A stretch of DNA of 64,000 nt from IMG/VR virus record IMGVR_UViG_3300028920_000055, positions 1 through 64,000 of that record; one strand, 5' to 3'. How positions within the stretch are numbered: the stretch's first letter is position 1; every line of letters starts with the position of its first letter. Made by a program: the position numbers and the translations under genes. Of this stretch, positions 14,519 through 24,870 are shown one piece after another. The notes below the pieces were generated by a model that saw only the letters and a list, made by a program, of their open reading frames with translations, was not told where the DNA came from and searched no databases. The stretch comes from a virus.

Positions 14519-14547
14519 TTGACAAAAAGATAATAGTTTATTATATT
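14519..14547 (+). promoter_or_regulatory. strong sigma-70-like promoter, copy 1
   Basis: TTGACA (14519-14524), 17-bp spacer, TATATT (14542-14547) within the extended element TTTATTATATT. Followed by a 42-base leader identical to that at 15363-15404, rich in GTTAG units. Confidence 0.85.
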
Positions 14548-14548
14548 C

Positions 14549-14590
14549 CGTTAGTCGTTAGATTAGCGTTAGACGGTTCTTTGAAAATCG
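14549..14590 (+). repeat. 42-bp duplicated leader, copy 1
   Basis: Exactly repeated at 15363-15404, immediately after the -10 in both cases, so both transcripts begin with the same roughly 35-40 bases. Contains three GTTAG units and could be an operator array or a regulatory 5' UTR. Confidence 0.85.
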
Positions 14591-15332: not shown

Positions 15333-15361
15333 TTGACAAAAAGGTTTTAATTTATTATATT
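15333..15361 (+). promoter_or_regulatory. strong sigma-70-like promoter, copy 2
   Basis: TTGACA (15333-15338), 17-bp spacer, TATATT (15356-15361) in TTTATTATATT. Near-identical to the promoter at 14519. These two -35 boxes contain the only ACA trinucleotides on the + strand between 14341 and 16130. Confidence 0.85.
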
Positions 15362-15362
15362 A

Positions 15363-15404
15363 CGTTAGTCGTTAGATTAGCGTTAGACGGTTCTTTGAAA
15401 ATCG
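15363..15404 (+). repeat. 42-bp duplicated leader, copy 2
   Basis: Identical to 14549-14590; leads into a unique stretch and then the AAAAGGGGAAAGTTATG initiation site at 15433-15449. Confidence 0.85.
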
Positions 15405-15884: not shown

Positions 15885-15929
15885 CTAACTAACGTTATGC
15901 AAAACTGAAAAGCCCTATTAACGCTATAT

Positions 15930-15962
15930 AAAGCCCTATAGTCAAGCTATAGGGCTTTTTTT
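15930..15962. terminator. strong terminator
   Basis: AAAGCCCTATAG / CTATAGGGCTTTTTTT with a short TCAAG loop, 45 bases after the 145-residue gene. It shares its stem sequence with the terminator at 15077. Confidence 0.9.
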
Positions 15963-16015
15963 ATTTCCGGTTGCAAAACCCCGGAAAGTATATACGGGAT
16001 TATTAAACTCTTTGC

Positions 16016-16105
16016 AAAACCCTATTATCAAAACCCTATTATCAATTGACCTTTTCCCTTATTAAATCCCTTTTTGCATAACGATTAGCAAAACCCTATT
16101 ATCAA
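16016..16105 (+). repeat. three copies of AAAACCCTATTATCAA
   Basis: Copies at 16016-16031, 16030-16045 and 16090-16105; a fourth lies at 14365-14380. The first two are contiguous. Embedded in AT-rich non-coding DNA. Confidence 0.75.
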
Positions 16106-16440
16106 AACCCTATAGGGTATAGTATACCCCAACAGCCTATTAGCTATTGACTATTAGCTATTATCAATTGACGGTTTTCAATAGTCAATTGACTATAGAC
16201 TATATACGCTATACTATACCCTATACCCTATACCCTATACCCTATACCCTATAGACTATTAACGTATATACTATTATTAACTAACTACGAATAGTTAGCT
16301 ATTATTAACGACTATAAACTATTAATAAATAGTATTAACTATAAACTATTGACTATTAACGACTTACAACAGGGGGGGTCTATTAACAATGTAGAGCTAA
16401 CGGGAAGCGACTAACAGCATATACCATTTTTACATTGGAG
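16106..16440. other. AT-rich non-coding segment with CCCTATA heptamers
   Basis: No gene supported. It holds five exact tandem CCCTATA heptamers at 16219-16253 and many degenerate ACTATTAACTA words on either side, ending in a GGGGGGG run near 16372. The heptamer array resembles slipped-strand tandem repeats. Confidence 0.7.
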
Positions 16441-16519
16441 TGTTTTCGAATAAAACACAAGTTTTAATGTTACAATATAATGTTTTCGAATAAATGAGAC
16501 TATAATGTTTTCGAATAAA
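16441..16519 (+). repeat. three direct repeats TGTTTTCGAATAAA
   Basis: Copies at 16441-16454, 16481-16494 and 16506-16519, each with the palindrome TTCGAA. Starts are 40 and 25 bases apart. Looks like a multi-site operator or iteron set for a DNA-binding protein. The last copy is 30 bases ahead of a possible small gene and about 200 bases ahead of the tRNA-like gene. Confidence 0.7.
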
Positions 16520-16549
16520 ACAATAAATGAAAAACATAAAAGGTGTTCG

Positions 16550-16690
16550 ATGGTTTCGTTATATATATCTTTTCTATCCCTCTATAGGGGAGATTTTACG
16601 TATTTTATTACATTTTCTTACATAAATATTTATCCGGTCAGATCGATTTTTTTCTTTACTTTTAGCGGGTTTTTCCTTATATTTAGATAA
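16550..16690 (+). CDS. possible small hydrophobic protein
   Basis: 46 residues from ATG 16550, five bases after AAAGGTG. Nearly all hydrophobic and aromatic with two stretches able to span a membrane (MVSLYISFLSLY, then IFFFTFSGFFLIF). An earlier ATG at 16505 lies in the repeat and has no ribosome site. May be a chance frame in T-rich DNA. Confidence 0.3.
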   Translation: MVSLYISFLSLYRGDFTYFITFSYINIYPVRSIFFFTFSGFFLIFR

Positions 16691-16720
16691 CGTTAACGGC
16701 TTAATTAATTACTATAGTAT

Positions 16721-16738
16721 CTCCCAAGTTCCAGGGAG
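16721..16738 (+). other. small hairpin before the tRNA-like gene
   Basis: CTCCC / GGGAG with an 8-base loop, ending three bases before the long leader-trailer stem of the tRNA-like gene. Possibly a processing signal. Confidence 0.4.
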
Positions 16739-16741
16739 AGA

Positions 16742-16880
16742 GTACAATGGACTTGCTTTAGCTCTTGGTAGGGCCGGTAGGTTCATACCCTACTGTAGCG
16801 AATGGTGGTTTTTCCCGTATCGGGTTTTTCCCACCTAACAGGCTATGTGGTTCGATTCCGCGTGAGTGGGTCCATTGTAC
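16742..16880 (+). repeat. inverted repeat closing the tRNA-like gene
   Basis: GTACAATGGAC (16742-16752) is the exact reverse complement of GTCCATTGTAC (16870-16880). With the acceptor pairs this makes a continuous stem of 16-17 bp enclosing the cloverleaf. Confidence 0.85.
16752..16874 (+). tRNA. tRNA-like gene, anticodon CAU, giant variable arm
   Basis: A cloverleaf can be drawn. Acceptor CTTGCTT (16752-16758) pairs with GAGTGGG (16864-16870), then discriminator T and encoded CCA (16872-16874). TA is at positions 8-9. The D arm is GCTC/GGGC with loop TTGGTA, the anticodon stem GTAGG/CCTAC with loop TTCATAC (CAU at 16784-16786), and the T arm TGTGG/CCGCG with loop TTCGATT. The variable region is 52 bases and folds as TAGC/GCTA, GGTGG/CCACC and CCCG/CGGG. 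Odd points: a 2-base D-anticodon linker, one extra base between T stem and acceptor, several G-U pairs, and a leader/trailer that extends the acceptor by a further 10 bp. It could be a functional Met or AUA-Ile type tRNA, an unusual processed RNA, or a tRNA mimic. Confidence 0.6.
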
Positions 16881-16900
16881 TTCTATTGTAAGGAGGGATT

Positions 16901-17086
16901 GTGAAGATTGCGTGGTGCTTTATTAGTTGGGGTATATCTGTTTTTCTTCTTATAGTGGCGGAGTGTCTTGTAAAAAATGAAGCCGCCAGGGACATTCTTA
17001 CCAAATCTTATATACATCTTGCTGTTTATTACATTGTTGCTACATTAATATACTTTATGTGTTTGGAAGGCGGATATATACAATGA
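16901..17086 (+). CDS. small two-helix membrane protein
   Basis: 61 residues from GTG 16901 behind AAGGAGGG. Two predicted membrane segments (AWCFISWGISVFLLIVAECL and LAVYYIVATLIYFMCLEGG) separated by a short charged loop. Starts 26 bases after the tRNA-like gene, so both may share a transcript. Function unknown. Confidence 0.6.
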   Translation: MKIAWCFISWGISVFLLIVAECLVKNEAARDILTKSYIHLAVYYIVATLIYFMCLEGGYIQ

Positions 17087-24789: not shown

Positions 24790-24870
24790 AAAGGGCCAAC
24801 ACTCTAAAATAACGGTCGGTGTGCTCAGGCAAGCACCCAGGGCGTAAAAAGGTGTGAGTGTTGGCCCTTT
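24790..24870 (+). ncRNA. structured RNA / 5' UTR element
   Basis: A perfect 15-bp stem, AAAGGGCCAACACTC (24790-24804) with GAGTGTTGGCCCTTT (24856-24870), encloses about 51 bases. The loop contains its own hairpin GTGCT/AGCAC and G-rich segments. It begins about 23 bases after the predicted start of transcription and ends 33 bases before the next ATG, masking no ribosome site. Could be a small phage RNA, a riboswitch-like leader or a transcription attenuator. Not matched to a known class by eye. Confidence 0.6.

Follow-up and report, generated by a model that had tools for sequence, protein, structure and literature searches.

The window analyzed here, a 64,000-nucleotide stretch of DNA, comes from an uncultivated virus, the record of which (G000) is 90,051 bases long. 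The record is that of a tailed phage, with matches to portal, major head, and tape-measure proteins, and it also matches a DnaB-like helicase, the CHC2 zinc finger of primases, and a 5′-3′ exonuclease. Relatives were reached through terminase and capsid protein searches. Those linked by the capsid are G001 (49 kb), G005 (73 kb), G010 (93 kb), G011 (91 kb), and a 59.6-kb contig with an 80% identical capsid protein, found in a MAG labelled Chloroherpeton thalassium. The MAG points to a host of the Chlorobi/Bacteroidota lineage without proving it. The two closest relatives, G001 and the MAG contig, begin at the equivalent of about 24 kb of the window, and the locus described below lies outside them.

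The feature under study is a tRNA-like fold on the plus strand, at positions 16742 to 16880, between a promoter-like motif and the Shine-Dalgarno (SD) sequence of a small-gene operon. The promoter-like motif, recognized from its sequence, is CTTTACTTTT-N14-TATATT (TTTACT-17-TATATT; 16654 to 16683, plus strand), which ends 58 nt upstream of the tRNA-like domain. Sites of the form CTTTACTTTT-N14-TATMTT, with the same 14-nt spacing, are present within the record at 16654, 24731, ∼74705, and ∼80624. They also occur in G001 and G005, one of the G001 copies differing by a single change. A small leader hairpin, TCTCCC-AAGTTCCA-GGGAGA, is predicted between promoter and domain (16720 to 16739, plus strand). 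The SD sequence, AAGGAGG (16890 to 16896, plus strand), starts 10 nt past the end of the domain and is followed by the first gene of the operon (16901 to 17086, plus strand), which has a GTG start and encodes a hydrophobic protein of 61 amino acids with no family match. A run of small genes, almost all of them without family matches, continues downstream, in agreement with the sequence-only reading, which had placed a small-gene operon immediately after the element.

The SD sequence and the start of the first gene are predicted to be covered by a 16-bp hairpin (16883 to 16958, plus strand; 16883-16898 paired with 16943-16958), which could represent a regulated off state. Its z score changes with the choice of ends, being either −3.1 or in the range of −1.1 to −1.7, so that stability argues only weakly for it. 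Because this hairpin is predicted with or without the tRNA-like domain, no switching between the two is visible, and a domain/SD switch was rejected. A coding role for the stretch was likewise rejected, the only open reading frame being one of 53 amino acids with a TTG start. A four-codon frame at 16747 (ATG GAC TTG CTT TAG) was given little weight, since its SD-like GGGAGA sits in a hairpin.

Further upstream, two near-identical operon starts (14519-14590 and 15333-15404) carry TTGACA/TATATT and GTTCTTTGAAAATCG, a sequence that we take to resemble an rRNA-type boxA, and the G005 leader contains GTTCTTTGAAATCG. Such boxA-like elements may recruit host antitermination factors. An AT-rich noncoding block (15885-16520), with direct and inverted repeats of the ACCCTATTATCA type and three copies of a TGTTTTCGAATAAA-type unit, could be a replication origin. 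In this block, at 16101, the minus strand gives the most stable GC-corrected fold on either strand.

In its sequence context, the full cloverleaf is both the predicted minimum-free-energy structure and the centroid structure of plus-strand positions 16742 to 16880, and all coordinates of its parts refer to that strand. The domain is closed by a leader-trailer sealing helix of 10 perfect Watson-Crick pairs (16742-16751 with 16871-16880; P 0.96 to 1.0), the same 10 that had been claimed as an extension of the acceptor. The helix passes directly into an acceptor-like stem of seven pairs, four of them G·U (16752-16758 with 16864-16870; P 0.79 to 1.0), giving 17 contiguous pairs, or 19 if two looser outer pairs are counted, where a closed stem of 16 to 17 bp had been proposed. 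Within this stem lie a D-like arm (16761-16774; 5 bp, 4-nt loop UGGU, P 0.86 to 0.91), an anticodon-like arm (16775-16795; 7 bp, loop UUCAUAC, P 0.75 to 0.92) that presents a CAU anticodon at 16784-16786, an extended variable arm (16796-16844), and a T-like arm (16845-16863; 6 bp, loop UUCGAUU) that is also recovered in the Rfam tRNA-Sec alignment. The four inner pairs of the T-stem have a P of 0.93 and the two outer pairs 0.45 to 0.64.

The variable region forms blocks of 3, 5, and 4 bp in the minimum-energy structure; the 3-bp base block of that structure is AGC/GCU, and the 5- and 4-bp blocks have P values of 0.87 to 1.0. The three paired blocks and the CAU anticodon of the sequence-only reading are therefore present, and its 52-base variable arm corresponds to 49 nt when the long flanking stems are counted or ∼52 nt when canonical 5-bp stems are assumed. 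An intrinsic terminator in the variable arm was rejected: the stem in question has 4 bp, and the terminator scan was negative. The tip of the arm (16818-16831, TATCGGGTTTTTCC) is identical in 13 of 14 bases to the promoter spacer (16663-16676, TAGCGGGTTTTTCC). The claimed cloverleaf with an encoded CCA has all of its arms, but the CCA (16872-16874) is buried, being base paired, as is U73, within the 3′ strand of the sealing helix. The sequence is canonical at the elbow positions G18, G19, T54, T55, C56, and A58; position 14 is U rather than A, and position 15 is U rather than a purine. The 6-bp T-stem, the 4-nt D-loop, and the 7-bp anticodon stem are Sec-like.

The fold is considerably more stable than expected by chance. 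For positions 16742 to 16880 the z score is −4.91, and none of 1,000 dinucleotide shuffles was as stable; among 140-nt segments of the plus strand, corrected for GC content, the one at 16741 is the most stable in the 90-kb record. When the combination of a tRNA T-loop on a stem of at least 5 pairs with a contiguous outer helix was scored, none of 200 shuffles reached the 19-bp helix of the element, the shuffle maximum being 11. The best Rfam match is tRNA-Sec, at 27.9 bits (E value of 7.7e-5 for the record; gathering cutoff, 47). The shuffle, genome-scan, and Rfam statistics thus indicate that, at the level of sequence, the structure is genuine and its resemblance to tRNA is specific.

A resemblance of this kind could reflect a true non-canonical phage tRNA, Sec-like or allo-tRNA-like with a CAU anticodon and used in translation, for which the leader-trailer helix would hold first and RNase III or RNase P cutting and trimming would follow. 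The complete cloverleaf, the encoded CCA, and the Rfam match would all fit, and the 13-bp T/acceptor domain, the 4-nt D-loop, and the long anticodon stem are like those of selC-type tRNAs (PMC7609411). The tRNA search programs give a different picture: ARAGORN calls no tRNA at the element or anywhere in the 90-kb record, RF00005 has no match in the record at E values up to 10, and the score against the bacterial tRNA-Sec covariance model remains below the gathering cutoff. To our knowledge, moreover, the variable arm is about twice as long as any class II arm, and the discriminator of a Met or Ile tRNA is not U73.

The stability of the element as a free-standing molecule also bears on this reading. 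Trimmed to the extent of a tRNA (16752-16874), the sequence still had the cloverleaf as its minimum-energy fold, with a P of 0.27 for the acceptor and ∼0.5 for the D and T arms and a z score of −1.07. As a yardstick we used 22 tRNAs of the Chloroherpeton MAG, an organism that may not be the phage host: these have 0 to 2 G·U acceptor pairs (mean, 0.41) against 4 in the element, and acceptor P values of 0.81 to 1.0 against 0.27. The free-standing acceptor stability of functional tRNA genes was therefore not found. An encoded CCA ends only 5/22 of the tRNA calls in this MAG and is thus a weak sign of a tRNA in the lineage. With a free acceptor that is largely unpaired in prediction and rich in G·U, a paired CCA and U73, U14 and U15, and a record devoid of called tRNAs, we regard the phage tRNA reading as unlikely. 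The sequence-only reading had proposed a processing signal for a phage tRNA, a tRNA with an insertion, a mimic, or a new RNA class; it was right about the tRNA-like anatomy and about the operon that follows at once, and a functional phage tRNA is disfavored.

The same degenerate acceptor, a single occurrence, and the failure of every tRNA caller to accept the element would be expected of a decaying tRNA gene that carries an insertion in its variable loop and has been retained by chance. The perfect pairing of leader with trailer over 10 bp and the good pairing of the variable arm would not result from decay, and the z score of −4.91 also argues against it, which makes this explanation quite improbable. 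Since the long extra stem locks the tRNA-like fold, the element, as modeled, is probably not a working tRNA and probably a control element of the message.

Homologues were sought in viral contigs, in the related phages, and in 396 genomes of the phylum of the MAG, and across these the clear examples of the element number one, in one genome. The exact D-arm pattern gave only chance matches in viral contigs, all without a T-arm, and a search for D-arm, CAU, and T-arm with a long gap returned 14 loci, none related to the element. Searches with the operon proteins found no relatives and almost no families. Neither G010 nor G011 has a tRNA-Sec or tRNA match or a T-arm with an acceptor helix; in the 80 loci listed by a scan with the promoter motif, no other leader was tRNA-like; and the 396 genomes gave only short partial matches of about 15 to 40 bases. 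As no true homologue was found, the claim about function made below is kept correspondingly restrained.

Among the related virus records searched, the tRNA-Sec model matched only one element, in G005 (70829-70892; 18.2 bits), with an 8+5-bp acceptor/T structure and a TGGT D-loop. It lies between a promoter of the same type (70449) and a small gene and is not syntenic with the element of the window. Helices as long as that of the G005 element occur in ∼2% of shuffled genomes, so the resemblance is suggestive only. Adjoining it is a second T-loop-like hairpin (L036:10776-10825; GAAG-TTCGATG-CTTC), the arms of which are extended by TTCCCATG/CATGGGAA, and for this reason there may be a tandem of two such elements; in the minimum-energy fold of L036:10776-10825, the outer stem is kept and the T-loop hairpin is lost.

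Other unusual tRNA-like genes were encountered. Three IMG/VR contigs (L009:360-490, L010:2227-2357, and L020:14436-14566 [minus]) carry a nearly identical gene with a 9-bp acceptor, a 5-bp T-stem, an 11-bp anticodon stem with a 22-nt loop, and a variable arm of ∼33 nt; ARAGORN makes no call for this gene, and a called tRNA-Met lies directly upstream in two of the three contigs. Another (L015:12858-12985, minus) has an 8-bp acceptor, normal D and T arms, and an intron-like insertion of ∼48 nt in the anticodon loop.

The phage has a second operon leader with a long closing stem. At 24790-24870, between the 24731 promoter of the shared type and the SD sequence of ORF 24904, a perfect 15-bp stem (24790-24804 with 24856-24870; AAAGGGCCAACACTC/GAGTGTTGGCCCTTT) encloses a leader with no tRNA features and no meaningful Rfam match. 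Such a stem would suit a processing or stability signal, in which RNase III would cut the long helix or the T/acceptor part would guide RNase P, leaving the operon mRNA with a defined, protected 5′ end. The acceptor/T part of a tRNA is the minimal RNase P substrate; in the element, 17 to 19 contiguous pairs stack on the 6-bp T-stem, and it is mainly this part that is kept in G005. A processing signal would leave the kept anticodon and D arms unexplained, and RNase P should make weaker contacts when the CCA is paired. We consider this role unlikely.

Another reading is that the element acts as a tRNA decoy and ties up a host factor that binds tRNA, such as a defense-system anticodon nuclease that recognizes the CAU stem-loop. 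The CAU loop is stable and exposed and the group-type promoter is strong, and a role as competitive inhibitor has been proposed for the tRNA-like YrlA RNA (PMC7790460). The domain belongs to an mRNA leader, though, and a decoy seems very unlikely.

We favor instead the view that a small-gene phage operon carries, in its 5′ untranslated leader, a tRNA-like domain that acts in cis, and we assign this a probability of roughly 0.45. The position in the leader, the kept elbow, and a helix that stabilizes the fold while hiding its 3′ end make this the first choice, which is also favored by the second leader of the phage, closed by its 15-bp stem, and by the G005 element with its like placement between promoter and operon. 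What computation shows is the fold, how it depends on the sealing helix, and where it lies, between the group-specific promoter motif and the SD sequence. The transcript would start at about 16690 and fold into the tRNA-shaped domain. As the 10-bp leader-trailer helix seals the "acceptor," the domain would stay in the mRNA, neither matured nor charged. From its place just upstream of the SD sequence, it would most likely raise or control translation of the operon, its T-loop/D-loop elbow binding the ribosome or some other host factor that recognizes tRNA.

The path that leads from the fold through ribosome binding to translation is inferred by analogy with the yjdF riboswitch and with tRNAs placed in cis. 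The yjdF riboswitch, an mRNA leader resembling tRNA-Lys, lacks a free 3′ end and binds ribosomes through its aptamer, and tRNAs in cis upstream of an SD sequence raised translation 2- to 6.3-fold in vitro, an effect that is uncorrelated with variable-loop length and little altered by mutation of the ACCA end (PMC9142559). The phage element shares with yjdF a tRNA-like domain next to the SD sequence in an mRNA leader, a kept elbow, and the lack of a free 3′ end. Unlike yjdF, it has an acceptor that continues into the sealing helix, a variable arm of ∼50 nt, and no identified ligand pocket; the Rfam covariance model of the yjdF family gave no match at E values up to 10.

Comparison with free tRNAs and other tRNA-like RNAs reveals partial likenesses. 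Bacterial tRNA-Sec (RF01852) has the 13-bp acceptor/T domain, the 4-nt D-loop, the long anticodon stem, and the paired variable arm, whereas the phage element divides the domain as 7/6 rather than 8/5, has CAU rather than UCA and a 5-bp rather than a 6-bp D-stem, and differs in its ∼50-nt variable arm and buried CCA. YrlA Y RNAs carry their tRNA-like domain on a stem formed by both RNA ends, as the phage element does, although the closing helix of the latter has no bulge; the Rfam Y RNA families gave no match to the element. The tRNA-like domain of YrlA RNAs is noted in PMC7790460. Allo-tRNAs and selC-type tRNA-Cys combine, like the element, a Sec-like cloverleaf with an unusual anticodon, but they are defined by 12-bp acceptor/T domains of 8/4 or 9/3 (PMC7609411), so that the element, which has 13 bp (7/6), is sealed by a further helix, and lies in an mRNA leader, falls outside that class.

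Known cis-acting tRNA-like mRNA leaders in bacteria are mainly the yjdF riboswitch and artificial constructs. Were the element a real tRNA instead, its variable arm, far beyond class II, would test the size limits of tRNAs. The cis-acting leader is simple to test, since mutations can be made in the sealing helix and in the elbow independently. Tentatively, and with less confidence than for the element itself, we propose that this uncultivated phage group may head small-gene operons with tRNA-like domains as translation or control elements, an extra helix sealing them so that they remain in the mRNA; they would then form a class of cis-tRNA leaders encoded by phages and without sequence relationship to yjdF. 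A natural phage case in which the acceptor is sealed would suggest that the binding of ribosomes or tRNA factors is exploited in cis by viruses.
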